From positions 434,001-498,000 of the forward strand of contig NZ_CP095491.1 of assembly GCF_023028105.1 (NCBI RefSeq): DNA of 64,000 nt, given 5' to 3'. The notes beneath the pieces were generated by a model. It searched no databases, was not told where the DNA came from, and saw only the letters and a list, made by a program, of their open reading frames with translations. Below, piece by piece: positions 5,402-64,000 of the stretch; positions within the stretch are counted from its first letter, which is position 1; the number at the start of each line of letters is the position of its first letter. The translations under genes and the position numbers were made by a program. Origin of the DNA: Halosolutus gelatinilyticus (GTDB taxonomy: Archaea; Halobacteriota; Halobacteria; Halobacteriales; Natrialbaceae).

Positions 5402-7903
5402 TTAGCGCTCGGTTTTCTGATCCGAGTCGTCGACCGGGATGTCGTCCGCCTCGGTCGAGTCGACGAAGGTGAACACGTCGTCGCGGTCGGCGCCGGATTC
5501 GGACTGCGCGGGTCGGTCGTCGGTATCCGCGTTCGACTCGTCGCCCTCGGTCGCGTTGCGATCCTGCAACAGGTCGTCGAACGCCGATCCCTCGTCGCGG
5601 ACGTCGATCGTGTCCGCGGAGAACGATCGGTCCAGGTCGATGTCCGCGTCCGTCTCGAACTCGTCGAGCTTCGACGACAGCTCCGACGCCTGCTGTGAGA
5701 GGGTGTTGGCCGAGTGGGTGATCTCGGTGAGGGCGGTCGTCTGCTCCTCCCCGGCGGCGGCGACGGTCTCGGCCTCGTTCGTGGTCTCCCTGGAGATGGT
5801 CGAAACCTCGTCGATCATGGAGACGACTTCCTGCGTCGACGCCGCCTGCTGTTCGGTCGCGGCCGAGATCTCCTGTACGCCGTCGTTCGTTTCGGCCGCG
5901 TACCTCGCGATTTCCTCAAGCGCCTCGACCGCCTCCGCGACCGCCTCGCGGTGGTCGGCGATCTGCTGGCTGGTTCGCTGTACCCCTTCTGCCGTGCGTC
6001 CGGTCTGGGTCTTGATCGCCTCGATGCGGTTCTCGATGTCCTCGGCGGTCACTTTGGTCTCTTCGGCGAGTTCTTTGACCTCGCTTGCGACGGCGGAGAA
6101 CCCTTCGCCCGAGTTGGCCGAGCGGCTGGCCTCGATGTTGGCGTTCAGCGCCAGCATGTTCGTCTGCTCGGCCACCTCGCCGATACTCTCGACGAGCTCG
6201 TCGATCTGTTCGATCTCGGTTTCGAGCCGCTCGATCTCCGCGACGGCCCGCTCCGATTCGTCCGAAATATCTCCCATCCCCTCGATGGCGTTCTGTGCGG
6301 TCTCTCGACCCGTTCGGCCCGTCTCGGCGGTTCGCCTGGCGAGGGTCGCGACCTCGTTCGAGGAGGAAGCGATCTCTTCGGTCGTCGTCGACAACCCGTC
6401 CATCTCGGCGTCGATCGTCTGCAGGTTCTCGTTCTGGCGCTCGGCGCCGTCGGCGATCTCCTGGATGGATCCCGCGACCTGCTCGCTCGCGCTGTGGACT
6501 TCCTCCGTACCGGCGGTCACTTCCTCGCTCGCCGCCGCGACGGCGGTCGCGAACTGCGAGAGCTGCTCGGTGGTTTCCTCGAGTTCGGCGATCATCTCGT
6601 TGAACTCGACGGCGATGTCCGACATCGCCTCGCTCTCGCTTTCGGGGTCCAGCCGACGGGTGAGATCGCCCTCGGCGCACTCGCGCATCACGGTTCTGTA
6701 CTCGTCGGCCTTCTGCTCTAAGTGACGGTTCAGACGGGTCGTCTCGTCCCGAGCCTGCTCGGCCCGCTGGCGCGCCCGTTCGACCTCCTCGATCTGCTCG
6801 CGCAGCGAGACGCGCATGCTGTCGAACGCGTCGTAGAGCCGGCCGATCTCGTCCGATCGACTGGTCTCGAGTTCGGCGTCGAGATCGCCGTCTTCGAGCT
6901 TTTCGGTCTGTTCGACCAGCCGGCCGATCGATCGGGACGTGTTGCGTCCGACGATCGCACCGATGAGCCCGAGCCCGAGCAGCGAGAACGCCACCAGCGC
7001 GAGCACCGACTGCGTGATATCGTCCTGGAGCGCGTACGCCGCTTCGGCGGGGATGTGCGTCATGACGACCCAGTTGGTCTCCGGGATCGGAGCGTATCCC
7101 ATGGCCATCATGCCGTGGGCGTCCATCTCCATCTCGAGGTAGCCCGTCTCACCGCGGATGCCGCGTTTGACCGCCATCGACTCGACCGAGAGCTCGGCGT
7201 CGCCCCCCATATTCTGGGTGTTGATGTCCCCCTTGTCGTGGCTCATGACGACAGTTCCCCGGGAGTCGACAACGTGGGTGAACGCTCCCTCCGAGACGGA
7301 CGGTCGCTCCAGTTGGTTCGTCTGCGTTTCGAGGTCGACGACGACCACGATCACTCGATCGGGGTCGTCCGGAACCGAACTGACGAACGCGACCGCCGGC
7401 ACGTCGGCCACCGGATCGTGGTAGGGATGGGTCACGGTCACGTGTCCCGCCTCGTCGGTCGCGATCCCCTCGGTCACCCACTCGACGGACGCATCCGCGT
7501 ACGCGCTCGTCGAGACGCCGTCCTCGCTGCTCCCGATCACGGTTCGATCGTTCGCGTCGAAGTAGTGGATCGCGGCGATGGAACCGGCGCTCTCAGCACG
7601 TTCCTCCCGGAGGAACGATTCGATCTCGGATTCGTCGCCGCGCAGAACGGGATCGGCCGCAGAAAGGTGTCGGGTCTTCTCTTCCGTCCGCTCGACCCAT
7701 TCGCTGATCGTGTTCGCTTGCAACACCGTCGACCGTTCCATGTTGTCTTTCGTGCTCTTCTCGAGAGCGGCGCCAGTTTGCATGTAGATGAGCCCGCCAA
7801 ACGTGGCGATGATCACGAGAACGATGCAGAACAGGACTGCCAGTTTGAGCGAAAAGCTCCCCCTGAGACGCCCTATCGGAGAGAATGTATTGCGTTTCCC
7901 CAT
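5402..7903 (-). CDS. Methyl-accepting transducer protein (Htr type) with Cache sensor domain
   Basis: Membrane chemoreceptor that would signal to CheA/CheW. An N-terminal transmembrane helix (about 20-45) is followed by an extracytoplasmic Cache-like sensor (about 50-275), a second helix (SVLALVAFSLLGLGLIGAIV), a HAMP domain, a linker, and a long cytoplasmic coiled coil. The hairpin tip contains EVAEQTNMLALNANIEASR, a typical MCP signalling core. The frame extends to an ATG at 7915, but I prefer the ATG at 7903 because a TATA-like box at 7929-7936 predicts transcription starting near 7906. The ligand is unknown. No che genes are nearby. Confidence 0.93.
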   Translation of the reverse strand: MGKRNTFSPIGRLRGSFSLKLAVLFCIVLVIIATFGGLIYMQTGAALEKSTKDNMERSTVLQANTISEWVERTEEKTRHLSAADPVLRGDESEIESFLREERAESAGSIAAIHYFDANDRTVIGSSEDGVSTSAYADASVEWVTEGIATDEAGHVTVTHPYHDPVADVPAVAFVSSVPDDPDRVIVVVVDLETQTNQLERPSVSEGAFTHVVDSRGTVVMSHDKGDINTQNMGGDAELSVESMAVKRGIRGETGYLEMEMDAHGMMAMGYAPIPETNWVVMTHIPAEAAYALQDDITQSVLALVAFSLLGLGLIGAIVGRNTSRSIGRLVEQTEKLEDGDLDAELETSRSDEIGRLYDAFDSMRVSLREQIEEVERARQRAEQARDETTRLNRHLEQKADEYRTVMRECAEGDLTRRLDPESESEAMSDIAVEFNEMIAELEETTEQLSQFATAVAAASEEVTAGTEEVHSASEQVAGSIQEIADGAERQNENLQTIDAEMDGLSTTTEEIASSSNEVATLARRTAETGRTGRETAQNAIEGMGDISDESERAVAEIERLETEIEQIDELVESIGEVAEQTNMLALNANIEASRSANSGEGFSAVASEVKELAEETKVTAEDIENRIEAIKTQTGRTAEGVQRTSQQIADHREAVAEAVEALEEIARYAAETNDGVQEISAATEQQAASTQEVVSMIDEVSTISRETTNEAETVAAAGEEQTTALTEITHSANTLSQQASELSSKLDEFETDADIDLDRSFSADTIDVRDEGSAFDDLLQDRNATEGDESNADTDDRPAQSESGADRDDVFTFVDSTEADDIPVDDSDQKTER

Positions 7904-7928
7904 GTTCGGATACATCGTGACACTCGCA

Positions 7929-8112: not shown

Positions 8113-8470
8113 TCACCCTACACGCGGGAGTCGACGATCGGCGCGGTCGATCGCCGCGGATAACGCGCGGACATCGGAGACGAGCGCGCCGTTCGGATCG
8201 TCTTGCGGCCGATCGCGTTCCTGTGTGAGCTCGGCGGCCGCCCGCAACGACCGAATGCCCCCCGTTCGACGCCGGCGACCTCGTCCGCGATCGCCTCGAG
8301 TTGCAGGCGCGTTACGACAGTTTTCTCCCGCTCGGGCCGGAGATAAGTACATCCGACTCAGTGGGATACGGTGTCGTGAACCGTCGAAGAAGCTGTTCGA
8401 CTTCGTTCTCTCGATGAAGCAGATCAGACGGGACGGATTTGTCATCAAAGACACGCGGATCTGCGATCAT
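8113..8470 (-). pseudogene. Remnant of an Orc1/Cdc6 replication initiator with a large internal deletion
   Basis: From an ATG at 8470 the minus strand reads MIADPRVFDDKSVPSDLLHR and continues ENEVEQLLRRF...LISGPSG, the N-terminus and start of the Walker A loop of archaeal Orc1/Cdc6 proteins. It then stops. Just downstream, in shifted frames, come LQLEAIADEVAGVERG and GIRSLRAAAEL, which resemble the sensor-2/lid region of the same family. The ATPase core between them is missing. This is a decayed gene, one of four on this strand within 10 kb. Confidence 0.7.
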
Positions 8471-8570
8471 ATCACCGATCACAATCACGTTCCATGAAAA
8501 GACTCCTTGTGTTTCCGAATAATCAAACAGGATGATATTTTGGTAGTATCGGTAGGGATTAGCACGGATT

Positions 8571-8691
8571 CTTTACCTAGAGAGGCCGTGAAACGCGTGT
8601 TCAGTATAAGTGGTAAAGTCATCGGGCTGGTAATCGACCTTTCCAGATGCTGTCAAAGGCAGCGTGCTGAATCCAGAGGATGTATTCAGCA
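8571..8691 (+). repeat. Dispersed repeat (about 125 bp) ending in a 27-base palindrome, copy 1
   Basis: Blocks TTCTTTACCTAGA, CGTGAAACGCGTGTT, TTTCCAG and TGTCAA are followed at 8665-8691 by the palindrome. The palindrome has an 11-base arm TGCTGAATCCA, centre GAGGA and arm TGTATTCAGCA. The same blocks recur in order at 19140-19268. The copy lies just upstream (in the reading sense) of the Orc1 remnant and downstream of the lipoprotein gene. Confidence 0.7.
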
Positions 8692-8767
8692 AGCGGTCAC
8701 GACGTACAATAGTCTAGTCAGTCACCGCTCTCAAGACGACTTTACGTCGATTACCTTTCCCATGCGT

Positions 8768-9214
8768 TCAGTCCTTTTCGAAACAGCCGCCCCATCCGTA
8801 TTCTCCTCTGTCGCTGTGGGCGTCCCAAAGCCACGAGTCAGTACAGTAGGACGTGAGAACGACTACGTACACAACGTCTCCATATCGGATATAGAGACCC
8901 GAGATGTAGTCAGAGTCGTGTTCGAGTCGTGAGTACCACGGAAGGGCCGACAGAGCGTGAGCTACCGTATCGTACTCACGTTCAGTCACTTCGATATCCG
9001 CTTGACCGTTTTGACGCGCCTGTTGAAGTCCTCTTCGTATCGGCTCAACATCCGTAATACGTCCATCAGAGGCTTCAGTAACCGTCGTCTGAGGCGGCGT
9101 ATCGGTGGACAACACTTGAAGCAATCCACCATTCATCCCCGGATCGCTAATACAACCGGAGAGAGCGGCGAGGGATACACCCGCGGTACGAGCGAGGAAC
9201 CTTCGTCGATTCAC
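8768..9214 (-). CDS. Small Tat-type lipoprotein of unknown function
   Basis: A 148-residue protein beginning MNRRRFLARTAGVSLAALSG followed by Cys. This has the twin-arginine-like RRRFL motif, a hydrophobic stretch and a lipobox with Cys 21, so it is probably exported and lipid-anchored. The start is GTG at 9214. The mature part is small and acidic, with two C-terminal cysteines that could pair. I recognise no family. It is flanked on both sides by copies of the 27-base palindromic site (8665-8691 and 9273-9299), which may mark it as a cassette. Confidence 0.75.
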   Translation of the reverse strand: MNRRRFLARTAGVSLAALSGCISDPGMNGGLLQVLSTDTPPQTTVTEASDGRITDVEPIRRGLQQARQNGQADIEVTEREYDTVAHALSALPWYSRLEHDSDYISGLYIRYGDVVYVVVLTSYCTDSWLWDAHSDRGEYGWGGCFEKD

Positions 9215-9272
9215 GTGTTTCGTTCTCTACAGGTGGTTAATAGCTTATCTACACCGATGGAACCCTAGTCTG

Positions 9273-9299
9273 TGACTGATACGCTCCCTGTATTCAGCA
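9273..9299. repeat. 27-base cassette-end site, opposite orientation
   Basis: The right arm TGTATTCAGCA is perfect; the centre CTCCC and left arm TGACTGATACG are degenerate. Read on the minus strand it begins TGCTGAATACAGGGAG and is preceded by CTGTCAA, as in the other orientation class. It lies about 60 bases upstream of the lipoprotein start. Confidence 0.55.
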
Positions 9300-9358
9300 C
9301 GATGTTTTTGACAGCTATCGGTGAGATCGACTTCCGAACCGTCACCGACTTTGTCTGT

Positions 9359-9417
9359 GCTGAGCAGTCACTACCTCCGCAAATCAAGCCAGATCCGTGC
9401 AACATTCGCACTATGTG
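9359..9417 (+). repeat. Short dispersed repeat, copy 1 of a pair
   Basis: A stretch containing CAAATCAAGCC, then GATC, GTGC and ACATTCGCA, matches 20941-21000 with only scattered differences. Both copies lie at the right edge of a cassette (lipoprotein here, histidine kinase there). The function is unknown. Confidence 0.55.
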
Positions 9418-9420
9418 TTT

Positions 9421-10305
9421 TCACTGGTCCCAGTCATGTTCTCGAAGGTACGTCTCAAGCCGGGTAAGATCGATATTACGGTCACGTTCCAGTGCCTCAA
9501 CATCGACACCGTATCCGTACTCGTTGATCCATTCGAACATCATTGCTAACACCTCCCCCATCTCCTCACGGGCGACCTCGATCGGGACGTGCTGGGCGTC
9601 AACCTTAGTCTCTGTCACGTCAGTGAAAACTTCAGCCGCACTTTCGAGCGTGTGCTCATCGCCGGCCACTTCAACGGTCTCACCAACGTATTCCTCGGGG
9701 GTCGCCAACGCAGTGACGGCGAGCGCGCCGATGTCGGAGGCATCGACCATCTGCATCGAGACGCCCTCAGCCAGGGGGGACACAAGGGTTCCGTTCAGGA
9801 TCACTTCGCGCTGGCGCTCGTAGTTCTGCATGATCGTGACGGGGCGAAGGATCGTTGCAGGAAGCCCAAGGCCGTGAATTCGCTGTTCGATGTCGTACTT
9901 CGACTCGAAGTTAGGAATCCCGGTGTCGCGCTCGGCTCCGGCGACGGAGCTAAACACGAACTGCTCGATGCCGATTTCGGCCGCGACCTCTGCCATGTTC
10001 GTTCCTTGCTCGATCTCAGCCTCAATCCCTGCCTCAGTAGGTGTCGTACCGCTCTCAGCCTCAATCGTGACGCAGTATACCGCGTCAACGGTCTCAACCG
10101 CTGGCGTGAGACTGGCTTTATCCAGGAGGTTTCCCTCAACGAGCGTCGCGCCCCGATCGGCAAGCGCCTGCGCGCGATCGCTCTCGGGACTGCGCGTCAA
10201 CGCGTGGACATCGAAGTCGCCGTACTCGCCGGATAATAGGTGGTTAGCAACCGCCCCACCCTGGCGGCCAGTCGCTCCGACGACTAAGACGCTGAACTGA
10301 CTCAT
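9421..10305 (-). CDS. NmrA/HSCARG-like NAD(P)-binding protein
   Basis: An atypical short-chain dehydrogenase-type Rossmann protein of 294 residues. The N-terminal dinucleotide motif VVGATGRQGGAV is followed by VHALTRSPES, typical of NmrA-like proteins. The central region FVFSSVAGAE..GIPNFESKYDIEQ retains the K-containing but Tyr-poor active site of this group. It probably senses or uses NAD(P)H in redox or quinone metabolism; the substrate is unknown. I chose the ATG at 10305 because GGAGG lies just upstream on the minus strand and the 59 upstream codons look non-coding. It is divergent from the bat-type regulator. Confidence 0.9.
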   Translation of the reverse strand: MSQFSVLVVGATGRQGGAVANHLLSGEYGDFDVHALTRSPESDRAQALADRGATLVEGNLLDKASLTPAVETVDAVYCVTIEAESGTTPTEAGIEAEIEQGTNMAEVAAEIGIEQFVFSSVAGAERDTGIPNFESKYDIEQRIHGLGLPATILRPVTIMQNYERQREVILNGTLVSPLAEGVSMQMVDASDIGALAVTALATPEEYVGETVEVAGDEHTLESAAEVFTDVTETKVDAQHVPIEVAREEMGEVLAMMFEWINEYGYGVDVEALERDRNIDLTRLETYLREHDWDQ

Positions 10306-10469
10306 AGCGAATCCTCCGGGCCCCTGTTTAATTGTCGGATTCTGGCGGCACGTTCGTCGTGCTGCATTTGTCTCACCATGATATGTACTACGGGGGGATG
10401 CAGCTTGGTGATTACCGTAAACATGTTCAACACCATGCGGATAAGGCTGGGAGTCGAAAACAGTGGTAT
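10306..10469. promoter_or_regulatory. Divergent promoter region between NmrA-like gene and bat-type regulator
   Basis: 164 bases separate the two starts. A Shine-Dalgarno GGAGG precedes the leftward gene. An in-frame extension of the rightward gene back to a TTG at 10332 exists but does not resemble bat-family N-termini, so I treat the space as regulatory. The regulator probably acts here. Confidence 0.4.
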
Positions 10470-11099
10470 ATGCCAAGTGCACAGGTTAAATTCAAATTCT
10501 CTGACGGGCCAGGCGCACTCTCAACCGAGCGCCCGGACGATGAGTTCCGGATTCTAGCGACCCTCCCGACAAGAGATGGCATTCAAGTAGTCCTCGAAGT
10601 TCAGACGTTTGACACCGCAGCCATCATTCGACACTTCGACGAAGCATCGTGGTTGCCGTCCTACGACGTGCTGCACGCCGATGAGCAGACGTTGCTCATT
10701 CAGTACTCCCACCAGTTCCTCCCCCCGCTGCATCGTGCACTTCTTTCCTCGGGGCCCCTCCTGCAGTATCCCCTGACCCTTCGAGATGGGTGGATGTTCA
10801 GTGACATAACTACTTCACACGAGCAGCTATCCCGACTCAAAGACGCATTCGAGGCCGAGGGGATCCCGTATGAAATCGGCTCGGTCACACAGTCAACCGA
10901 CCCAACAGACCTACTGACGGATCGCCAACGGCGGTTCATTACCGCGGCGGTTGAGCACGGGTACTACGATAGCCCGCGCGAGTGCACGCTCACCGAGCTT
11001 GCGGCTGCGCTGGATGTCAGCAAAGGTGGAGCAAGTCGCATTCTCCACCGCGCTGAAGGCCGCATCATCAAGAACTTCCTCGGCGAACCAGCCGTGTGA
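10470..11099 (+). CDS. Bat-type helix-turn-helix transcription regulator
   Basis: A 209-residue haloarchaeal regulator. An N-terminal sensor-like domain (FRILATLPTRDGIQVVLEV ...) carries the typical LLIQY and PLTLRDG motifs. It is followed by LLTDRQRRFITAAVEHGYYD and a C-terminal HTH_10 domain (TLTELAAALDVSKGGASRIL). The ATG at 10470 gives the usual family start (MPSAQVKFKF). It is divergent from the NmrA-like gene, a common haloarchaeal pairing that suggests control of that gene. Confidence 0.9.
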   Translation: MPSAQVKFKFSDGPGALSTERPDDEFRILATLPTRDGIQVVLEVQTFDTAAIIRHFDEASWLPSYDVLHADEQTLLIQYSHQFLPPLHRALLSSGPLLQYPLTLRDGWMFSDITTSHEQLSRLKDAFEAEGIPYEIGSVTQSTDPTDLLTDRQRRFITAAVEHGYYDSPRECTLTELAAALDVSKGGASRILHRAEGRIIKNFLGEPAV

Positions 11100-11180
11100 A
11101 CCGTTCACCAAGGTAACCTCTACTGATGAGGTAGGTCTCGATTGGTGTAAAAAAGGTTCAACTCCTGTCGCGACCTCTCT

Positions 11181-11570
11181 ATGTATGCTATGGAACGATA
11201 TGTCGATGGATTCGTCCTCCCGATCCCGAACGATAAGCTTGATGCGTACCGCGAAATAGCCGATGAGGCCGGACAGCTTTGGATCGAACACGGCGCCCTT
11301 GAGTATTTCGAAGGAGTGGGAGACGACATGGAGCCAGACATGGGCGACATGTCGATGCGGCTCTTCCCACAGCTCGCCGAAACCGGGGACGACGAAACGG
11401 TCGTGTTCTCATTTATTGTGTTCGAATCTCGAGAGCACCGAGACGAGGTGAACGCAAAGGTAATGGATGATCCCGCGATGGACCCGGAAAACTACGATGA
11501 GGAGATGCCCGTCGACCTCGAGCGCATGGCGTACGGCGGCTTCCGCTCCATCGTCAGCTACGAGGAGTGA
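11181..11570 (+). CDS. DUF1428 family protein
   Basis: A 129-residue protein with the features of the YbaA/DUF1428 family: MERYVDGFVLPIPNDKLDAY at the start, VVFSFIVFESREHRDEVNAK in the middle and MAYGGFRSIV near the end. The fold is a dimeric alpha-beta barrel; the biochemical role is not established. The ATG at 11190 is an alternative start that matches the family better by three residues. Confidence 0.9.
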   Translation: MYAMERYVDGFVLPIPNDKLDAYREIADEAGQLWIEHGALEYFEGVGDDMEPDMGDMSMRLFPQLAETGDDETVVFSFIVFESREHRDEVNAKVMDDPAMDPENYDEEMPVDLERMAYGGFRSIVSYEE

Positions 11571-11690
11571 TGAAGTGACCTCTGCTGAGGTACGATGGCC
11601 CGATTTCGGTCAGGGGGAATCGGTCAATACGAATTCGTACCATCTGGGTCTTCGAACGACGCATAGGTTCCCAATGCTGGGAGAACATCC

Positions 11691-11814
11691 CTAAAAGTTA
11701 CTTGGATATGGAATCGTGAACCGTCGAAGAAGCTGTTCAATTTCATTCTCCCGATGAAGCAGGTCGGGCGGAACAAATTTGTCATCGAAGACCCAGAGGA
11801 TCCGCAACAATATC
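11691..11814 (-). pseudogene. Short N-terminal remnant of an Orc1/Cdc6 gene
   Basis: The minus strand reads VFDDKFVPPDLLHRENEIEQ, then LLRRFTIPYPSN and a stop. This is nearly the same protein start as the remnant at 8113-8470. The position of the start codon carries ATT instead of ATG, and a frame break lies near residue 8. The surrounding DNA aligns with 8355-8540. Nothing of the ATPase domain remains. Confidence 0.65.
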
Positions 11815-11830
11815 ACCAATCGCAATCACA

Positions 11831-12179
11831 TCTCGTAAAGAGACTTCTTGCTATTCCGAATAATCCAGCGAGATGAAAGAGTAACTGTGACCAGTAGATT
11901 GTAACATGTGTTTCACATATAAAAACCGTGGAAATAATGTTCAGTACAGGTGAAGCACGTATCACACAAAGAGAGGAGGTGAGCTGTGCTATTCATATAC
12001 ATAGCTTTAACCGTCTGGGGCATCTCTATTGTATACGGAATAACAATTCATATGGTGTGTCCCGGTGATAACGGGATTGCTTGAACCGGATCCTCGTTCT
12101 GTCGCGGAACGCACCTTGTTCTCTCTACGTCGCTGCCACGTGTGACACATTGTCTGGAGAATGATTCCTTAACCTACAT
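11831..12179. other. Gene-free stretch with a fragment of the dispersed repeat
   Basis: AT-rich for this genome. Around 11921-11950 it contains CCGTGGAAAT followed by GTTCAGTAC, related to the second block of the dispersed repeat at 8571-8691 and placed in the same way upstream of an Orc1 remnant. The right part presumably holds the promoter of the zinc-finger gene at 12180. Confidence 0.4.
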
Positions 12180-12371
12180 ATGACCGAAGACAGGAACACC
12201 CCGACAAATGGAGCTGGGCAAACCTCACGGAAAATCCGTATCGTGTGTACTGAATGCGCCTTCTCGAAGCTGATAACGAAAGAAGGAAAAAAGTCCTCAG
12301 AAGTAATTATTGAACACGGACAGGAAACTGGCCACAAACTCACTACTGAGGAACTTGATGACGATAAGTAA
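12180..12371 (+). CDS. Small CCHH zinc-finger-like protein
   Basis: A 63-residue protein with IVCTECAFSK followed by IIEHGQETGHKLT, giving a Cys-x2-Cys...His-x5-His arrangement likely to bind zinc. Haloarchaea encode many such micro-proteins, often regulatory. It stands alone and is flanked by gene-poor DNA. Confidence 0.75.
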   Translation: MTEDRNTPTNGAGQTSRKIRIVCTECAFSKLITKEGKKSSEVIIEHGQETGHKLTTEELDDDK

Positions 12372-12444
12372 GCACACGTAGTTACCAACCGACCGATTCA
12401 GTTCAACTCTACTTTGAATATTGGAATCGTACTACCAACTACTG

Positions 12445-12666
12445 TTACTCCTCAACAAGGAACCGATCGCGCCAGTAGTCGGTCTTCACCCAGTGCTGCG
12501 GGCAGTCTTTGCAGTGGGGAGTTTCGTCGATATTCGGCGCTGAGCGCCTACAGCTGCAACACTCGATTTCGCCGGTCGGCTCGCCGATTTTGAGTCCGTC
12601 GTCCCAGACAGGCGTCTCGCTTCGGACGATCCGATACTCTGTACTGGGCGCAAGTGCGTCCTTCAT
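12445..12666 (-). CDS. Small Cys-rich protein, probably zinc binding
   Basis: A 73-residue protein with two Cys pairs: ECCSCRRSA and HCKDCPQHW. It is the last gene of a compact minus-strand set (12445-13446) typical of integrative elements. No family is recognised. Confidence 0.65.
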   Translation of the reverse strand: MKDALAPSTEYRIVRSETPVWDDGLKIGEPTGEIECCSCRRSAPNIDETPHCKDCPQHWVKTDYWRDRFLVEE

Positions 12667-12688
12667 CTCAGCGTCCCTCCAGATCTGC

Positions 12689-13015
12689 TCACCGCAGAGT
12701 ACCGCTGCAGTGTTCGCCCAGCTGCTCGTCGAGGTCGTCGCGATCGATGATCGCCGGAATCTCCCGTTGGCCGGTAGCGTATGCGCCCCGCTTCAGGTGT
12801 TTGCACTCTCGACTACGAAACCGATAATCCGGACACTCGCAGACACCGAGTCGCGCGTCGACGAGATACTCCGACCCGGGCTGAGAGATAACGAGGTACT
12901 GGCCATCGCAGCCACGGACGCGACTGACGTCTTCGAGAACGGTCATATACTGGGTGAGCGCACGCCGATCGAGCTCATCGGTGGCCTCCTGGACGGACTC
13001 GGTGACCGCCATCAC
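12689..13015 (-). CDS. SWIM zinc-finger protein
   Basis: A 108-residue protein. The central YLVDARLGVCECPDYRFRS followed by RECKHLKRG fits the SWIM pattern CxCx(n)CxH, which binds zinc and contacts DNA or protein. The start at 13015 shares a base with the end of the upstream ORF, suggesting translational coupling. SWIM proteins of this size are frequent in haloarchaeal mobile elements. Confidence 0.8.
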   Translation of the reverse strand: MMAVTESVQEATDELDRRALTQYMTVLEDVSRVRGCDGQYLVISQPGSEYLVDARLGVCECPDYRFRSRECKHLKRGAYATGQREIPAIIDRDDLDEQLGEHCSGTLR

Positions 13016-13446
13016 TACTCACCTCTGACATCGTGAACGGCAGTGACACGCTTGAGCCGTCCACGAGGGAACGCGTAGCGCTTCAGCGAGTCGATCGTCT
13101 TCGTAGTACGGTCCGGGTAGACAACCTCGACGACGTCGTCAGTCTCGTCAAATTCCGGGTTGACGTCCGCGACCGTCCTGTTCGCCCCCTCCAGCCGGTA
13201 CTCGTTCGATTGGTGAGCAGTGACTTCGACGACGACCATCGTCTTCTCGTCATCGTCGTCGGTGACGTCCTGGACGTGGTCTCCGACGTACAGCGGATCG
13301 CGATCGGTCTCACTGTCCTGTCCACCACCGGGTAAAATATCTTCGGGTCCTGCAACCACTTCAGCCTCGTCAACCGTCGGTTCTGGACCTCTGTGCTGCC
13401 GGTAACTCTCCTCCCAATTCGGCTTTGGACGCGTGTTGACCTGCAT
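13015..13446 (-). CDS. Hypothetical acidic protein of an integrated element
   Basis: 143 residues, acidic N-terminal half; the C-terminal half contains TVADVNPEFDETDDVVEVVY and RYAFPRGRLKRV. Its start directly follows a TGA of the upstream frame and its end abuts the SWIM gene, so the three genes read as an operon. No function can be assigned. Confidence 0.65.
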   Translation of the reverse strand: MQVNTRPKPNWEESYRQHRGPEPTVDEAEVVAGPEDILPGGGQDSETDRDPLYVGDHVQDVTDDDDEKTMVVVEVTAHQSNEYRLEGANRTVADVNPEFDETDDVVEVVYPDRTTKTIDSLKRYAFPRGRLKRVTAVHDVRGE

Positions 13447-13628
13447 TCAGACCCCCCCGTTTCGATGACGCGCTCGATCGTGTCGGACACTGCATGGCAC
13501 GCCGTGTTGTAGGCGTCCCAGACCGGGAGCGCATCGATCGTCGACGTCATCTCGGCGCCGATCGAACTTAGGTCGATCTGGGTCGTTTCCGTTTCTTCCG
13601 ATTCTTCCGAAATTGGTTCGTAGCTCAC
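13447..13628 (-). pseudogene. Small acidic ORF broken at a 7-G run
   Basis: From GTG at 13628 the frame reads MSYEPISEESEETETTQIDL and continues to SDTIERVIETGG, a plausible acidic coding sequence. It reaches a run of seven G (about 13450-13457). In the shifted frame a TGA comes immediately before the ATG of the next gene. One lost or gained G would restore an ordinary operon junction, so this is either a recent frameshift or a sequencing error. Confidence 0.4.
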
Positions 13629-13868
13629 GACGACCACCCCAGTCGTCGAACGATGTCTGGCCGTTGACGTCCGAGCGCTCGGTGATCGCTTGGTAGGTGG
13701 CGTCTGGTAAATTGTCAGTAACCACATGACAGCTATGAGCGATAAAATTGCTTTTCCAAAGGGCGATTCTCGGAGGATATTCCGTGATAACAGCGCGAGG
13801 AAACCCGCTCCAGTCCCGGTAATAATCGCAAATAAGATACTCAACACATGGAACGCGGTATCGGGCAT
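13629..13868 (-). pseudogene. N-terminal fragment of a small membrane protein
   Basis: The ATG at 13868 starts MPDTAFHVLSILFAIITGTG and continues with two hydrophobic helices to about LSLIAVMWLLTIY, resembling the beginning of small haloarchaeal membrane proteins. Beyond residue 54 the sequence turns into Ser/Thr/Arg-rich non-coding-looking text that fuses to the next frame. Probably truncated by rearrangement. Confidence 0.4.
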
Positions 13869-13994
13869 ATTCGATGTTCGTTCACCGATTCAATAAAACC
13901 GCTTTACCCCTTCTGAGAGAACGTCCTCACTAATTAGCCGCTAACGTATTGCCACTCACTAACAAAGAGGGTCCCCGTAGGACAAGCATACGCG

Positions 13995-14348
13995 ATGGCG
14001 CTAACTGAAATTACGCACGTCGGCGAGAACGATCGAATGGCAGAGTGTATCGATAACTGTCTTGAGGCGGCTCAAGCTTGCGAGTGGTGTGCTGACGAGT
14101 GCATTGGCATGGGAGAGGAGATGGCCCGCTGTGTTCGGCTCTGTCGGGACGTTGCTGATCTGACGACGTTGCATGCTCAGTTTATGGCTCGAAATTCAGG
14201 ATACAGTAGCGATCTCGCGGAAACGTGTGCGGAGGCCTGCGAGGAGTGCGCCGACGAGTGCGAACAGCACGACGAGGAACATTGTCAGATTTGCGCCGAT
14301 GTTCTCCGAGAGTGTGCTGACTCCTGTCGCGATATGGCCTCGGCGTAA
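13995..14348 (+). CDS. Cys-rich four-helix-bundle copper-binding protein (Csp/DUF326-like)
   Basis: 117 residues with about fifteen Cys spaced along amphipathic helices (CIDNCLEAAQACEWCADEC, CAEACEECADEC, CQICADVLRECADSC). This is the pattern of the DUF326/Csp family, cytosolic proteins that store Cu(I) in a four-helix bundle. It probably sequesters copper. It is followed 42 bases later by the channel gene. Confidence 0.88.
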   Translation: MALTEITHVGENDRMAECIDNCLEAAQACEWCADECIGMGEEMARCVRLCRDVADLTTLHAQFMARNSGYSSDLAETCAEACEECADECEQHDEEHCQICADVLRECADSCRDMASA

Positions 14349-14390
14349 TCCCGTTTAATCCTTTCCCGGTATGATTCCTAAGAGAGCCAT

Positions 14391-15392
14391 ATGATCCTTG
14401 GTTATCTCATTTTGGGCGCTGTTTTGCTCACTATTGTCGTTATCGACGTTCTCTGGACGACACTCTGGATTGCAGGAGGGGCCGGTCCGATTACCTCCCG
14501 ATTGATGGCATGGACATGGCGAGTACTGCGAAAAATCGGACGCAAGAACTCACTCTTCTTGAGTCTCTCAGGGCCGTTGATTCTCTCCTTCAGTCTTCTC
14601 GTTTGGATAGTCTTTCTCTGGGGTGGATGGACACTCATTTTTGCGAGTGCTGAAACCGCTCTTTCGGATACGCTCAATAGGGGGCCGATTTCCTGGAGTG
14701 ATCGCGTTTACTTCACGGGCTATACAATATTCACCCTGGGTATCGGTGATCTTGTCCCGCGAGAAGGAGTTTGGCAACTACTCACCATACTCGCAACAGG
14801 GAGCGGCCTCCTCTTGCTCACGCTCAGTATCACCTATATGCTCTCACTGCTCGACGCGGTTACACAGAAACGGTCGCTCGCCAGCAATATCTATGGACTT
14901 GGGACGACAAGTACGGAGATTATCCGCCGTAGTTGGAACGAAGAAGAATTTCGTGAACTTGAACTCCCACTACATACCTTTACGACACAACTCAATACAC
15001 TAACGACAAATCACAAGGCATACCCCATTCTTCACTATTTCCATAGTCAACAAGAAAGCACGACTCCTACAATTAGTATAATTGTGTTAGATGAGGCGTT
15101 AACGCTTCTTCGATTCGGAATTCCAGAGGCACATCAGCCGAACGAAATCATCTTACACAGTGCGCGGACAAGCGTCCAGAATTATCTCGGAACGCTCCAT
15201 CACACGTTTGTTGATTCTGCGGATCGAACTCCCCCTGCCCCCGATCTCGCTTCCCTTCGTGAGGTTAATATTCCGACTGTTTCCGACGAAGAGTTCGCTT
15301 CGTCTCTGGACGAATTGAACGAACGACGGCGAACATTGCTTGGCATAGTTGAATCCGACGCGCGAGAATGGCCATCCCCAGAAGAGGACTAA
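14391..15392 (+). CDS. Potassium channel-like two-transmembrane pore protein
   Basis: 333 residues. There are hydrophobic helices at about 1-28 and 55-85, then a pore loop with the filter-like TIFTLGIGDLVP and a further helix (LTILATGSGLLLLTLSITYM). The TLGIGD filter is close to the T-x-G-Y/F-G-D of K+ channels, with Ile at the aromatic position. The C-terminal 190 residues are cytosolic and show no RCK motif that I recognise. Ion selectivity is inferred. Confidence 0.8.
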   Translation: MILGYLILGAVLLTIVVIDVLWTTLWIAGGAGPITSRLMAWTWRVLRKIGRKNSLFLSLSGPLILSFSLLVWIVFLWGGWTLIFASAETALSDTLNRGPISWSDRVYFTGYTIFTLGIGDLVPREGVWQLLTILATGSGLLLLTLSITYMLSLLDAVTQKRSLASNIYGLGTTSTEIIRRSWNEEEFRELELPLHTFTTQLNTLTTNHKAYPILHYFHSQQESTTPTISIIVLDEALTLLRFGIPEAHQPNEIILHSARTSVQNYLGTLHHTFVDSADRTPPAPDLASLREVNIPTVSDEEFASSLDELNERRRTLLGIVESDAREWPSPEED

Positions 15393-15526
15393 CCAGTCTT
15401 GTTATAGAATGTACAAAATTCGCAAATACAATTTTCGTCGCGCAAAGTATGCATGCCTATGTAACGAATCAGGCGACTCAGATCCATCCCTGTTGCCGGG
15501 TACGGGGAATGTAATGTCAGTCACTG

Positions 15527-16568
15527 TTATACTGTTTCAAAAACGTTGAACTCGACAGGCGCTTCTAGCTCTGGATCAACGACTTCGTACACTTTCAAAT
15601 TCGTAGTCCCCGGGTTTCTAATCAGGTCGTAGTCGGCCATCTTACTCAGATAGTCCCACGCCCTCCGCCAAGTAACAGGATCGCGTCGCTCGCCCTCGAA
15701 GATCGCCTCTTTGTGCTCGCGGTAGGCCGTTTTCATCTCGGTCCCGTTGACCGGCCCAACCGCGCGCACCAGCTCGTACAGCCGAAGATGCTTCACGGCA
15801 GCGATCGCAGATTGGCCTTCCGAATCATGCGCTTGGCGCGATCGAACGAGTCTCGAACATCGTTTTCGCGGATCGTCCCATGGTCGCGATCCATCGCAAT
15901 CTCGGCGGCGGCAAGCACGGATTTGATCGCGTACCGTGCAACCCACCAGTTTCGTCAGCGATCCACTCTAGCTGGTCGATTGAAACCGGGTTGCCGATCA
16001 GTCCGTGCTCGACCCGCGGTTCGAGGATATCGACGAGCTCCGGGACGCGGTACTTTCGATACTCGATCTGGCGGTCACCATGGAACTGTGACCGGAGATT
16101 CCGATCGACCCGATTGAGCCATTCAGTATCCGAATGCGTGATCGCGATCACCGAGACCTCGTCGATCGAGAAGAGATCGCCGAGGACGTCTAGGTCGGGA
16201 ATGACGTCGGCCTCGTCGAGTGCGATGATGAATGGCTCGTCGGCGATTTTCTGGAACATCTTCAGGAGTTCCTCGTGGGGCTGGTTCCGATGGACGACTG
16301 TCCCCTTCGGATACTTCTCGATCGTCTCGTGGAGGATTCCGTTTCGAGTTCCACCAGAGCACTCGATCAGTGCGGAGTTAACCCCCTCACGCTGGCGGAG
16401 ATCGCGGAGCATCCAGCGCGCCGAGGCCGTCTTCCCGACGCCGCTGGGGCCGTGGATAAGCGCGTTTTCGGCGGATCGACTGTACTGTGCGGGCTCGAGA
16501 AGCCGCGACAGCGCGTCCAACTCGGCGTTCCGATGGAGGATCTGCGTCGGATAGATGTCTTCGAACAC
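15527..16568 (-). pseudogene. Orc1/Cdc6 family replication initiator, near full length with two frameshifts
   Basis: From GTG at 16568 comes FEDIYPTQILHRNAELDALS, Walker A GPSGVGKTA, Walker B FIIALDEAD, sensor-1 VIAITHSD and the lid. After ADETGG the frame shifts (near 15943) into VARYAIKSVLAAAEIAMDRD and ..DSFDRAKRMIRKANLRSLP. It shifts again (near 15797) into VKHLRLYELVRAVGPVNG and the winged-helix end. Both breaks look like single-base losses. Apart from them, all AAA+ and winged-helix parts are present. Either a recent pseudogene or sequencing errors. Such initiators bind origin boxes; no clear origin was seen nearby. Confidence 0.75.
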
Positions 16569-16775
16569 GACGCGATTCTTAATCAGTACCGACGATTTCG
16601 ATGACAGATATAAAAGGTGTAATGGACGTCGTTTCGGAACCGAAGACCAGACTCAATCTGTACCGGCCAGTTCGTTGTGTACAGACGCGAATTGACCGTA
16701 ACATACGCACCAAGATGATAAATAAAATTCCATAACCGCCGGAATAGTCATAGTGGAGAAGAATCAGTGAATGGT

Positions 16776-16979
16776 ATGGAGTACCGATTTTGGGACTGGC
16801 TCTCATGTCCTGCCTGTGAAGAGAGAGATGGTGTAAAGATGCTAGCGCACCGAACTGATATCGTCATTGAATGTTATGAGTGTGGTCAAACATCCGAGTA
16901 TACAATCGGAAAAGATGTCCCCATTCGAAATCTCAACATAGATATGATTAAGGAAGTTTCCAGGAATGACCACTTGTAG
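16776..16979 (+). CDS. Small zinc-ribbon-like protein
   Basis: 67 residues with LSCPACEERDG and IECYECGQTS, two CxxC pairs that make a small zinc ribbon. The ATG at 16776 is preferred to the GTG at 16767. It lies near the Orc1 pseudogene's upstream side on the opposite strand. The role is unknown. Confidence 0.65.
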   Translation: MEYRFWDWLSCPACEERDGVKMLAHRTDIVIECYECGQTSEYTIGKDVPIRNLNIDMIKEVSRNDHL

Positions 16980-17203
16980 GGCCAATCTATCCCTAAAAAT
17001 TACTGTGATTTGGTGCGGACTGGTTCGATGAATCTTGTGTTCTATAGACGCGTTCACCCCATCAATGGGATCAATCTGTTACGCTGGGTTGCCCATGTAA
17101 TAGAAGTTGGAAAAGAATTAGCTGGAGAATTTTAGATGATTGCATTCCATTTTCATTTTCTACTGTCCAAAGAATCATAGTTGCCTGCACCGCTACGTGG
17201 GGT

Positions 17204-17683
17204 ATGGCCGCGGATGGACTTGACGAACTTGACTACGGTATCCTTCACCTGCTTCAGCAAAACGCACGTGATCAGACTCCGGTTGACATGGCTGACAACC
17301 TCCCCGTCTCTGATACAACTATCCGTAACCGGATAAAAAATCTAGAAGAACAAGGGGTTATCGAAGGCTACGTTCCTGTCATTAACTATGAAAAAGCTGG
17401 ATTCCCGATTCGACTTCAATTTTCTTGCACCGCTCCAACGCAGGATCGGTCGGAGATCGCTGAAGAGGTCCTTCAACTTCCGCATATAGTCGCCGTTGAC
17501 GAGATGTTAAGTGCGAAGGAGAATATCCGCCTCTTGGCAATAACGAATACTGCCGAAGAGATCAACGAAATCGCATCTGTACTAGACGATCTCCCCCTAA
17601 CTATCGAGAGAGAAACCCTGCTTCGCAAATCTCATTTGCGCCCGTTCAACCATTTCGGTGAAGAAGTGGTGTCCAGCGAATAG
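17204..17683 (+). CDS. Lrp/AsnC family transcription regulator
   Basis: 159 residues. The N-terminal HTH (LDELDYGILHLLQQNARDQT .. NLPVSDTTIRNRIKNLEEQG) is followed by VIEGYVPVINYEKAGFPIRL and an RAM-like ligand-binding half that is shorter and more divergent than usual. It is probably a local regulator. The 220 bases before it hold no other gene. Confidence 0.88.
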   Translation: MAADGLDELDYGILHLLQQNARDQTPVDMADNLPVSDTTIRNRIKNLEEQGVIEGYVPVINYEKAGFPIRLQFSCTAPTQDRSEIAEEVLQLPHIVAVDEMLSAKENIRLLAITNTAEEINEIASVLDDLPLTIERETLLRKSHLRPFNHFGEEVVSSE

Positions 17684-17809
17684 CACTGCCGCTGCAGAAC
17701 ATATTTTCACTAAGTTAGATTCGAATTTTCAAATGCCTATATATGTATGTGTAGATTTAAACCACATTTGGGGCAAGTATTTTAGACCGGACGAAGTATT
17801 GGGTGAGTG

Positions 17810-18076
17810 ATGGGGTTAATATCTGAATCGGAAGACGGGGCAGATAATACAATTGAGTCCGCAACAGGTCTTATTTACTGCGTAGCGGAGGAAAAAGATA
17901 AAAACCCAGCAGAGATGGAAAATCCCCTGCACGATGCGATTGACGCTGATGTCATCGACCGGTTTCTACAATCAGCCGATCACCAAGCATACATCAAATT
18001 CGAGTATGAGGGGTTGAGAATAAAGCTCACAGGCGGTGGAGACCTTATGATTACCAGGTTGGCAGACGAGGATTAG
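17810..18076 (+). CDS. HalOD1 output-domain protein
   Basis: 88 residues matching the HalOD1 pattern: VAEEKDKNPAEMENPLHDAI followed by DADVIDRFL.. and YIKFEYEGLRIKLTGGG. HalOD1 is a haloarchaeal signalling output domain, often on its own. The ATG at 17810 directly follows an alternative GTG. One base separates its stop from the next ORF, indicating an operon pair. Confidence 0.85.
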   Translation: MGLISESEDGADNTIESATGLIYCVAEEKDKNPAEMENPLHDAIDADVIDRFLQSADHQAYIKFEYEGLRIKLTGGGDLMITRLADED

Positions 18077-18077
18077 T

Positions 18078-18278
18078 ATGTATCGCTGTGTCTGCTATAC
18101 CTGTGATGAGGAAAAAACGCTTGAAGATTTCGTAAAAGCGCAGAAGCTATTCAGTGATCACGTTGAAAGCTATCATGAAGTGGAACTCTTCAAAATAGAT
18201 GAAGTTAACGTGCTCACAGAGGGCAATTTAGAGCAAACAACATCCCAGGTCGAAGAGTCGGGTGCGGCTGATGAATAG
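18078..18278 (+). CDS. Small CCHH zinc-finger-like protein downstream of HalOD1 gene
   Basis: 66 residues: CVCYTCDEEKTLEDF and HVESYHEVEL give CxxC and HxxxxH pairs. It is translationally coupled to the HalOD1 gene and may be its partner. It ends in an acidic, unstructured tail. Confidence 0.7.
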   Translation: MYRCVCYTCDEEKTLEDFVKAQKLFSDHVESYHEVELFKIDEVNVLTEGNLEQTTSQVEESGAADE

Positions 18279-18289
18279 GATTCCTTATT

Positions 18290-18380
18290 GTAAATAGTGG
18301 ATGGATAGCTCTTGACAGTGCTATGTTCTTAACCTATACTGAACACGAGTTTCACGGCCAATTTTGAATAAAGAAACCAT
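18290..18380 (-). repeat. Dispersed repeat, inverted partial copy
   Basis: Read on the minus strand it gives GGTTTCTTTATTCAAAA, then GGCCGTGAAACTCGTGTTC, then CACTGTCAAGAG. These are the same ordered blocks as in 8571-8691 and 19140-19268. The terminal palindrome is not recognisable in this copy. Confidence 0.55.
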
Positions 18381-18426
18381 ACTACTGCCAACTATCAACG
18401 ATCGGCTCGACGTCGGCGTCGATCAC

Positions 18427-18714
18427 CTAATAAAGACGGTCTCTTGTCGGCCCGTCGTAGTTTACGAGATCGTATTCTTTGAGTTTCGGGAATTTGTCGC
18501 GACGAGCTCGCTTCCCGAGTGGATAGACTGGTGTCCCTGCGTAGGCCTCATCGGCCACTTCTTCGTACCGCTGGTGGAGTTCCGGGCCGGTGATCTCTCC
18601 GGCCTCATGGACGATCGCGTATAGCACCTGGTGATGGCAGGGCAGCGACTCCAGGTTCAGCTTCCGAATCTCGTGTTTCGCTCGCTCGAAAGAATCGTCG
18701 ACATCGCGATCGCG
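18427..18714 (-). pseudogene. C-terminal remnant of an Orc1/Cdc6 gene
   Basis: The frame reads VDDSFERAKHEIRKLNLESL, HHQVLYAIVHEAGEITGPEL, RYEEVADEAYAGTPVYPLGK and ends KLKEYDLVNYDGPTRDRLY. This is the end of the AAA+ lid and the winged-helix domain of haloarchaeal Orc1/Cdc6 proteins. Nothing of the ATPase core is present upstream; that DNA instead encodes a fragment of another gene on the opposite strand. Confidence 0.75.
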
Positions 18715-18753
18715 ATCGCCGAATGGACTGGAGATCAGACGGAGGCGGGCCGG

Positions 18754-18990
18754 AGTACGGACAGAAAAGCCGTCGAGACCACCCTTCGTCACACGCACCT
18801 CCCAAAACTTGTCGATGGGGGTATCGTTTCGTTTGGCGCGAACACGGGCTTCATTGAACTGAGAGACACGGACAGGTTTGACCGGTTCCTCGCCGATATG
18901 GCACGTATCGACGGTTACATGCAAACCGCTGCTGGCGATTGTGCGCAAGAACACGCACATTCGCCCCACGACCTCACCGTCTCGTATTGA
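18754..18990 (+). pseudogene. C-terminal fragment of a DUF7344-like protein
   Basis: The plus-strand frame reads STDRKAVETTLRHTHLPKLV and DGGIVSFGANTGFIELRD. It resembles the end of the haloarchaeal DUF7344 winged-helix domain (the HTHLPKL..GIV pattern). The beginning of that domain is absent; upstream lies the Orc1 remnant facing it. A truncated copy made by rearrangement is the simplest reading. Confidence 0.5.
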
Positions 18991-19139
18991 CGACTCTTGG
19001 TGTCACTACAACTCTATTAATTGATTAACTGTATTTATTTACAGGTGGTTTCGAACTGGATGCCGCCTCACGAAGAGGAAAACTCGACTAATGCGGTCGT
19101 CGTGACCGCAGACTCATCTTGCTATCAGTAGATAGTATC

Positions 19140-19268
19140 GCGGTTTCTTTATCTAGAAATACTCACGAAATGCTTGTTACGGATAGGGCAACGGTGTAAC
19201 AGGCCGACCAGAGATATTTCCAGTGCCTGTCAACACTGGCATGCTGAATACAGAGGATGTGTTCAGCA
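19140..19268 (+). repeat. Dispersed repeat ending in a 27-base palindrome, copy 2
   Basis: Ordered blocks TTTCTTTATCTAGAA, CACGAAATGCTTGTT, TTTCCAG and TGTCAA are followed by the palindrome at 19242-19268 (arm TGCTGAATACA, centre GAGGA, arm TGTGTTCAGCA). It ends 94 bases before the histidine kinase start. Confidence 0.7.
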
Positions 19269-19362
19269 CGACGGCTTTCTTTGTTTCATCTCGAAGCCAA
19301 TGAACCAGCCGTTCAGTAGATATGCGTAATGCCCATGACTCTTAAAGCACTGAGTGCATCTA

Positions 19363-20940: not shown

Positions 20941-21000
20941 TGTACTGAGTGATCACCACTTTCCAAATCAAGCCGGATCTCGTGCTACATTCGCATCTTT
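20941..21000 (+). repeat. Short dispersed repeat, copy 2 of a pair
   Basis: Contains CAAATCAAGCC, GATCTCGTGC and ACATTCGCA in the same order as 9359-9417. It lies immediately after the kinase stop, as the other copy lies beyond the lipoprotein cassette. Confidence 0.55.
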
Positions 21001-21015
21001 GATCCACACTGTGTC

Positions 21016-21099
21016 GCGGGCGCGGTGCTCGCCGGCGCCGACGAGGTCACGATCGAGCGTAAAAGGGGCGATCCTGATGAGCAGCCAGCAGTACGCTGA
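21016..21099 (+). pseudogene. C-terminal tail of a truncated upstream gene
   Basis: In this frame the DNA reads AGAVLAGADEVTIERKRGDP then a short end and TGA at 21097-21099, overlapping the next start. GC rises sharply here. This looks like the last codons of a gene whose body was left behind, preserved because it was operon-linked to the next ORF. Confidence 0.35.
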
Positions 21100-21472
21100 C
21101 GGTGGATCACTACTGAACTGGCCGGAGGGGTTCGATCGGACGTCACCCGAGAAACGCGAATCCTATCCGCACGGGTTCCGCGTCTCTCAAACCGCCGCGT
21201 TCGACAACATCCTAGATGGGCTACAGAAGATGGACGCCCGGAACGTTCAGGTGCGGACCGCGGCGCCGCACACCGCGAAGGAACCACACCGGCCCTACGC
21301 CAATCGGAATCCCGACGACCCAGGGGTGGTCGTCTACTTCGAGAAGGACGGCCAGCAGTTCGCCGTCCCCTGCGATCGATGGGACAACCTGCGGGACAAC
21401 GCGCAGGCGATCGCGTCAGCCCGATCGGCGTTGACCGCGAGATCACTGCGGACGAACTCGCCGTCCCAGTAA
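21077..21472 (+). pseudogene. 3'-truncated plasmid-type protein
   Basis: From ATG 21077: NWPEGFDRTSPEKRESYPHG, FDNILDGLQKMDARNVQV, NPDDPGVVVYFEKDGQQFAV and CDRWDNLRDNAQAIA. I recall this sequence type from haloarchaeal plasmids and proviruses, where a J-domain often follows. Here it changes near 21415 into the antisense of another fragment and stops early. The N-terminal part is intact. Confidence 0.6.
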
Positions 21473-25534: not shown

Positions 25535-25882
25535 ACCTCAAGGAGGTCCGGCTCATTGTTGTGCTTTTTCATCCGGGAACAGCGGTGGTGCAGAACTGTT
25601 CCCATACGAGGATGGCGCGAATGCTAGCTGTTTAGCGTTGAGCTTAGGCCAGTTTAAAGCAATCACACTGATAGACACGCGCCCTGTATACAGCACGCAT
25701 CATAGGATCTGATCGAAAAATGTCAGAAGCTGGCTGCTGGATACAGAGTATGAATTCAGCATAGCGTTTTTCCCATGAGAACCTTTTTCCTTGAGCCAAT
25801 CGTCCCAAGGTGATAATGGCTTATTGGGGAGACTCCCCGGGTGACTCAATGTCCCCTCAATCCCAGCACTCCAATTCCGAGT
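25535..25882. repeat. Divergent intergenic region with two cassette-end sites
   Basis: Between the KaiC-like gene and the MEDS kinase lie two sites. One is at 25669-25695 (degenerate left arm, centre CGCCC, right arm TGTATACAGCA). The other is at 25735-25761 (TGCTGGATACA, GAGTA, TGAATTCAGCA). The first closes one cassette and the second opens the next. Both promoters must also lie here. Confidence 0.6.
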
Positions 25883-27860: not shown

Positions 27861-27887
27861 TTCTGCATACGCGCTATGTATTCAGCA
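27861..27887. repeat. 27-base cassette-end site after the MEDS kinase
   Basis: The right arm TGTATTCAGCA is perfect, the centre is CGCTA and the left arm TTCTGCATACG is degenerate: the same right-end form as at 9273 and 25669. It overlaps the stop codon of the following minus-strand HTH gene. Confidence 0.5.
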
Positions 27888-28136
27888 TGACCTCCTGAAA
27901 TTATCATCAGTTAGGGGTTTCAACAGAGCTACTCGAACAAAACGGAGGTCTCCCTCGCTATCGCGATCGCGACGAATGACGTCCGCGTTCTCGAGTCGGG
28001 TGAGTGCTCGGTCGAGTGTTCGCGAGGGCATCTCGGTTCGGTCTTGGAGTTCGTCGCGTCGTATCGATCCGCCGGCGTCCTCGAGCACCCAGAGTAGGTG
28101 TTTCGCGCTCCAGGGGAGGTCGTCGGAGACGTTCAT
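27882..28136 (-). CDS. Small winged-helix DNA-binding protein
   Basis: 84 residues: LPWSAKHLLWVLEDAGGSIR, RDELQDRTEMPSRTLDRALT, RLENADVIRRDRD is a MarR-like winged helix with a charged wing. It may regulate the element to which the next gene belongs; both are on the minus strand 75 bases apart. The last codons overlap a cassette-end site. Confidence 0.8.
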   Translation of the reverse strand: MNVSDDLPWSAKHLLWVLEDAGGSIRRDELQDRTEMPSRTLDRALTRLENADVIRRDRDSEGDLRFVRVALLKPLTDDNFRRSC

Positions 28137-30060: not shown

Positions 30061-30133
30061 AGCCGGTGGAGGGATTTGAACCCTCGACCTAATCCTTACG
30101 AAGGATTCGCTCTGCCAGCTGAGCTACACCGGC
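30061..30133 (-). tRNA. tRNA-Thr (anticodon CGU)
   Basis: The minus strand folds as a standard cloverleaf. The acceptor stem is GCCGGTG with CACCGGC, the D arm contains GTAGCTCAGCTGGCAGAGC, the anticodon stem AATCC/GGATT carries loop TTCGTAA (anticodon CGT), and the T arm is GAGGGTTCAAATCCCTC. The discriminator base is U. No intron. The gene's 3' end faces the accessory region, the usual side for integrase attachment. Confidence 0.95.
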
Positions 30134-63727: not shown

Positions 63728-64000
63728 TCAGGAGTCGAGGATCCCCGCGATGTGCTGGCGCACCCGCACGTCGATCGCGATCTTCGCCTGGATCGGACAG
63801 CCCCGGATGAGATCCTGGATGCGGGTGACCTCCGCGTCGTCGTTGGCCACGCGGACGCGCTCCTCCCGAACCCGATCGGCGTACTTGAGGTCGTTTCTGA
63901 TCCCGACAGTGATGCTCGCCTCGACGTCGTTCTCCTCGCCCGCCCGGGAGAGTCACATGAGGAGCTTGCTGTCGTCGGCCTGCTCGGGCGGGACGGTAGA
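63728..64000 (-). pseudogene. 3' end of an unrecognised gene with an in-frame TGA
   Basis: The minus strand frame reads STVPPEQADDSKLLM, then TGA (63955-63953), then LSRAGEENDVEASITVGIRN, YADRVREERVRVANDDAEVT, IQDLIRGCPIQAKIAIDVRV and stop at 63728. Coding character is equally good on both sides of the TGA, so a CGA-to-TGA change or sequencing error is likely. The 5' end lies beyond the window. Function unknown. Confidence 0.6.

Follow-up and report, generated by a model that had tools for sequence, protein, structure and literature searches.

How a haloarchaeal chromosome came to hold several broken genes for the replication initiator Orc1/Cdc6, close together and on one strand, is the question raised by a 64,000-nucleotide stretch of DNA (here called the window; bases 434001-498000) of the 3.9-Mb chromosome of Halosolutus gelatinilyticus. 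A preliminary description had reported four such genes on the minus strand within 10.6 kb and had proposed that plasmid replication modules were captured repeatedly and then inactivated, as expected if extra origins are harmful in the chromosome.

Remnants were detected by six-frame translation and by tblastn with intact relatives, and both confirmed the four remnants, their places and their strand. Exactly four Orc1/Cdc6 remnants (R1 to R4), all on the minus strand, were found by tblastn between 7.9 and 19.1 kb, with no fifth piece in that range. R1 begins with residues 1-48 of a type A Orc, ending where Walker A begins (8327-8470; 83% to the Orc of genome G017, E ~4e-20; residues numbered on a 353-aa type A Orc), and ends in a lid segment of ~18 aa (VTRLQLEAIADEVAGVER, ~8262-8318; 78-83% over 18 aa). 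The core between them, approximately residues 49-199, is deleted; the GC content of the lid piece is 0.66, versus 0.54 in the N-terminal part, and positions 8113-8200 are without an Orc match. R2 (11700-11792) comprises residues 7-37 of a type A Orc (84%, E ~3e-12). R3 (15530-16586) is a nearly full-length type B Orc matched over its whole length (E ~3e-127); its frame shifts near 15940 and again near 15790, and a CTG stands at the position of its best relative's start codon; it is 64-65% identical to its relative in Natrinema ejinorense and 86% identical in amino acids to isl2B, a copy in a second island described below. R4 (18394-18714) is the C-terminal winged-helix part of a type A Orc (68-76% to type A), carries an in-frame TAG near 18427 and extends 33 bases beyond the boundary given previously.

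The homology assumed in the preliminary description is borne out: R3 and R4 match PHROG 7998 (2e-47 and 5e-24), R3 also matches TIGR02928 (1.4e-19), and R1 and R2 were assigned to the PHROG 7998 group through tblastn to intact members. Chance matches are excluded. None of the four remnants encodes AAA+ core, lid and winged helix together in an uninterrupted frame, so that they belong to the group by descent and not as working genes. R4 is fused to the inverted remnant of a DUF7344-like gene (18706-19064, plus strand; 93% to L033:13181-13539), the two being joined at a 9-base overlap (18706-18714, GCGATCGCG), and this join resembles recombination at a short repeat. Because R4 (residues 239-345) does not overlap R1 (residues 1-48 and the lid), the two may come from one gene; the number of remnants is thus four, while the minimum number of genes is three. 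The order in which R1 and R4 lie rules out a single orc gene split by a simple 10-kb insertion. At the window edge, a weak match in two pieces to an Orc of chromosomal type (63767-63976; 42% to the host's own L002) was also seen and is a possible further remnant.

The remnants fall into two families, type A (R1, R2 and R4) and type B (R3). The best intact relatives of type A are found in G017, G019, G021, G086 and G002; type B is matched in N. ejinorense and by a broken copy on the N. versiforme plasmid pNVE414. Among haloviruses, type A is 51% identical to Harhisp1 and 46% to ChaoS9, and type B is 45% identical to HJTV-4; small-plasmid matches of the two families include pNG300 and N. halophilum unnamed2. 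Judged by these similarities, both families lie within the halovirus and plasmid initiator group (PHROG 7998; BJ1, ChaoS9, HJTV-4 and small plasmids). The relatives are thus of virus-or-plasmid type and do not single out plasmids as the source, as had been proposed; virus and plasmid cannot be told apart from the sequences of these genes alone. In a tree, R3 grouped with the type B copies of the second island, including isl2B (support 98), and R1, R2 and isl2A, the type A N-terminus of that island, formed one branch with a support of only 69. The presence of two branches means that more than one initiator lineage arrived, while R1, R2 and isl2A may have arisen by duplication or through repeated arrival of a single element line.

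R2 retains the neighbors of a replication module on the minus strand: a 143-aa protein (13015-13446; 65% to G002, 47% to an N. halophilum plasmid), a SWIM zinc-finger protein (PHROG 17897, 12689-13015; 65-71% to relatives, 41% to BJ1 gp10) and a 70-aa protein (PHROG 17157, 12457-12666; 76% to G002, 33% to BJ1 gp14). The 143-aa, SWIM, 70-aa and Orc genes are colinear on one strand in the window and in G002, where the Orc at the end of the series is an intact type A gene. Subsets of the module are present in G017, G079, G095, N. halophilum and virus BJ1, the last having all members except the 143-aa protein. A J-domain-type gene (PHROG 9210; 35-39% to relatives and BJ1 gp05) is normally divergent to the module; in the window it is truncated and lies 7.4 kb away (20966-21415, plus strand). 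The window thus carries the membership of a BJ1-type replication module, that is, a divergent J-domain gene with SWIM, 70-aa and Orc genes on one strand, to which relatives add the 143-aa gene.

The remnants do lie within the 10.6 kb first described, but the unit to which they belong is the whole interval from cbiQ to tRNA-Thr (5216-30060), which measures 24.8 kb. The GC content is 45-58% across ~8-28 kb of the window, compared with 65-73% outside. In G001, a genome of the same genus, cbiQ, tRNA-Thr and trm5 all lie inside ~400 bp, so that the site is nearly empty, and it is similarly empty or near-empty in G099, of another genus; an empty site in relatives is a mark of tRNA-integrated elements. 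A high-GC chemotaxis-type transducer gene (5402-7915) lies inside the stretch missing from G001, and the acquired segment may therefore exceed its low-GC part. The cargo of the island is mostly of cellular types (kinases, KaiC and copper storage), which argues against a simple provirus; no capsid, portal, terminase or spike gene was found among ~20 ORFs scanned in the window.

In relatives, the tRNA-Thr gene (CGT; 30061-30133, minus strand) serves as an integration site. Its 3' end is partially copied near the tRNA in G001 (24 nt) and G002 (27 nt). In G086, cbiQ is followed by an element that bears an intact type A Orc and whose integrase gene starts with a 23-nt tRNA-Thr-like stretch (87%); neither tRNA-Thr nor trm5 was found there within 38 kb of cbiQ. 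A search of the window with the integrases of this element recovered no integrase remnant, and a copy of the tRNA-Thr 3' end marking the left border of the island was sought in the window and not found (nothing above 11-12 nt left of the tRNA). Since the window yielded neither feature, we infer entry at tRNA-Thr from the neighbors of this site.

A second remnant island was identified on the same chromosome at ~3713-3725 kb (~7.2-19.0 kb of locus L033, C1:3706001-3726000). It contains isl2A, a type B N-terminus, the near-complete type B copy isl2B with one TGA, and pieces of SWIM and DUF7344 genes; its Orc remnants represent both families on one strand, and the SWIM and DUF7344 pieces are held in common with the window. 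Across 354 codons, the differences between R3 and isl2B number 30, 20 and 129 at first, second and third codon positions, respectively (dN/dS 0.118), and their lesions are different, namely, two frameshifts in R3 and one TGA in isl2B. Differences concentrated at third positions, together with unlike lesions, indicate that the two diverged as working genes under purifying selection and were broken afterwards and separately. R1 and R2 probably likewise diverged under selection before breakage (2, 3 and 11 differences, dN/dS 0.096, over only 31 codons). For R1 and isl2A the dN/dS is 0.66, in a comparison that takes in upstream bases, which leaves room for duplication of that pair after inactivation. 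The proposed repeated capture followed by inactivation is therefore upheld in that the DNA was acquired, two branches are present, R2 keeps its module neighbors and R3 and isl2B were broken separately; it is less clear for R1, R2 and isl2A, which share one branch.

Origin boxes had been suggested as a further check beside each remnant, but, without a dedicated motif finder, no array of origin boxes flanking an AT-rich stretch was recognized next to them, only a single-copy motif and dispersed repeats. The single-copy motif, of 21 bases, occupies positions -47 to -27 relative to the start codon of R1 on the minus strand (8497-8517) and recurs before R2 (11838-11858). Of 14 intact type A genes, 11 keep it (the weakest with 5 or 6 mismatches), as do R1, R2 and isl2A. 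Being single-copy, it was rejected as a repeated origin box and is promoter-like. A conserved 65-base sequence (CCTATACTGAACACGAGTTTCACGG...AATAAAGAAACCGTGCTACTATCTACTG) lies upstream of R1 and R2 (8546-8612 and 11885-11951) and, in the opposite sense, left of R4 (18332-18392). In other genomes it precedes unrelated genes, and it was rejected as an orc-specific origin box because eight other loci carry it with no orc within ~8 kb, one of which (L087) holds only a weak 60-residue Orc match. A palindromic repeat (TGCTGAATACAGAGGATGTATTCAGCA) occurs between genes at 8655-8691, 9279-9302, 19239-19270, 25675-25698 and 27867-27890, and a query of the palindrome with its adjoining box matched 47 of 125 family genomes. 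The 65-base box and the palindrome near R1 belong to a dispersed repeat set that in relatives is found away from orc genes.

The orientation of the copies was surveyed at 49 distinct places in relatives, which either gave type A or B matches or were examined for such matches, as well as in the window and island 2. Nine loci, counted with the window and island 2 included and with Natrinema gari, fetched twice, taken once, carry at least two type A or B copies or pieces, and in all nine the copies share a strand (13 of 13 within-locus comparisons). L167 and L170 are sisters in the tree, and the comparisons are thus not fully independent, which places the chance value somewhere above 1 in 8000. 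In contrast, the histidine kinases of the window occur on both strands. In N. gari (L040, 4751-7026), a type B N-terminal remnant, a SWIM gene and an intact type A Orc stand in tandem on one strand. In seven relative loci that combine an intact copy with a remnant, at least two of which probably derive from one ancestral event, N-terminal remnants are always upstream and C-terminal remnants always downstream of the intact copy, on the same strand. We considered a common break at residue 316 in the C-terminal remnants; L167 and L170 look like one ancestral event beside the same TATACTGAAC sequence, and the remaining cases start at a conserved block, so a site-specific break is not claimed. It is conceivable, if doubtful, that resident initiator genes act as entry points for new modules, with a newcomer landing inside or recombining with the resident and displacing it; however, both the window and island 2 have N-terminal remnants downstream of a near-complete copy. 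The one-strand pattern would follow from integration in a fixed orientation, from recombination between copies or from tandem duplication, and the data do not choose among them. The one-strand pattern of stacked copies is what is new here, and it suggests oriented integration or recombination between copies.

Collectively, these findings are probably best explained by the interval from cbiQ to tRNA-Thr being a decaying mosaic island of several integrated elements, whose initiators were kept working and then broken one by one. Several elements would have integrated, with replication modules of the type common to haloviruses (BJ1, ChaoS9 and HJTV-4) and small haloarchaeal plasmids, bringing at least three initiator genes of two families. 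Each initiator would have been held functional by selection before or soon after arrival; after integration, initiation would no longer have been selected, and each gene would have been broken on its own, by core deletion (R1), truncation (R2), frameshifts (R3), or short-repeat recombination and a stop (R4). The shared strand may arise if new copies come in a fixed orientation, through site-specific integration or recombination between copies.

This order of events was weighed against four alternatives. The order type B, SWIM, type A on one strand, which recurs in N. gari, the window (R3, SWIM, R2) and island 2, would also be expected of one ancestral element with tandem initiators, type B then type A, duplicated to the island at 3.71 Mb with both copies decaying, and the groupings of R3 with isl2B (98) and of R1, R2 and isl2A (69) agree with it. 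Such an origin is unlikely, given that divergence between the islands is uneven (79% for R1, 82% for R3, 89% for SWIM and 93% for DUF7344), that purifying selection acted while R3 and isl2B diverged and their lesions are not the same, and that most intact loci have a single initiator. It is very unlikely that R1 and R4 are halves of one type A gene, with 8.1-18.7 kb a single element whose circle opened inside that gene. The absence of overlap between them, and the C-terminal part lying to the right on the minus strand, fit such an opening, but the inner edge of R4 is an ordinary recombination join with the DUF7344 gene, the core of R1 is deleted anyway, no direct repeat was found at the two edges, and R2 is an equally possible partner of R4.

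Two further readings concern the cause of breakage and the fate of the genes. The preliminary view, that selection against extra chromosomal origins drove inactivation, draws on the fact that every copy of both families in this genome is broken. We regard it as quite improbable, since approximately eleven genomes (G002, G023, G036, G045, G048, G051, G055, G059, G073, G078 and G079) have intact type A or B copies on contigs of more than 2 Mb, with two or three such copies on some of these chromosomes. In addition, no origin repeats were recognized beside the remnants, and published accounts present extra chromosomal origins as dormant or in use, not as eliminated (PMC4595724, PMC3936714). The host itself also has several intact chromosomal Orcs. 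Decay can thus be explained without a cost of extra origins; loss of selection after integration is enough. Retention of the island genes as non-initiator proteins or regulatory DNA is hardly credible: the upstream motif survives in R1 and R2, but these lack the ATPase core, R4 lacks the N-terminal half, and no frame is intact.

The codon evidence indicates that virus- or plasmid-type initiators repeatedly enter a haloarchaeal chromosome, function there for some time and are then inactivated independently. The finding is relevant to the origin of multi-origin chromosomes and to the turnover of extra Orc genes, and the one-strand pattern, if borne out in a full survey, would provide a testable rule for element stacking.

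The modules of BJ1, ChaoS9 and HJTV-4, of pNG300 and of Natrinema plasmids have an Orc of the same group as the island, and BJ1 shares in addition the J-domain gene, the SWIM gene and the 70-aa-type protein in the same order; unlike in those viruses and plasmids, only remnants are present here, and structural virus genes were not recognized among the ORFs examined. In variable chromosomal regions of Haloarcula, orc/cdc6 origins have been gained, lost and disrupted (PMC4441112, PMC3528665). There, as here, foreign initiators come into a fixed variable region and are disrupted in it, but the Haloarcula cases are named origins with origin boxes, whereas the present genes are of virus or plasmid type (PHROG 7998) and no boxes were found. 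In Haloquadratum walsbyi, cdc6 pseudogenes occur in a 6.7-kb region that has tRNA-Thr1 at one end and a partial copy of this gene at the other (PMC3119063). Both regions have decayed element(s) beside tRNA-Thr with several cdc6 pseudogenes and no integrase nearby; in Haloquadratum a tRNA-Thr copy marks the far end, whereas none was found here. Orc pseudogenes beside tRNA-Thr have thus already been published, and the island described here adds a further example, for which timing and orientation are better documented, as are two initiator families, a module of virus type, evidence from codon positions and the one-strand pattern.
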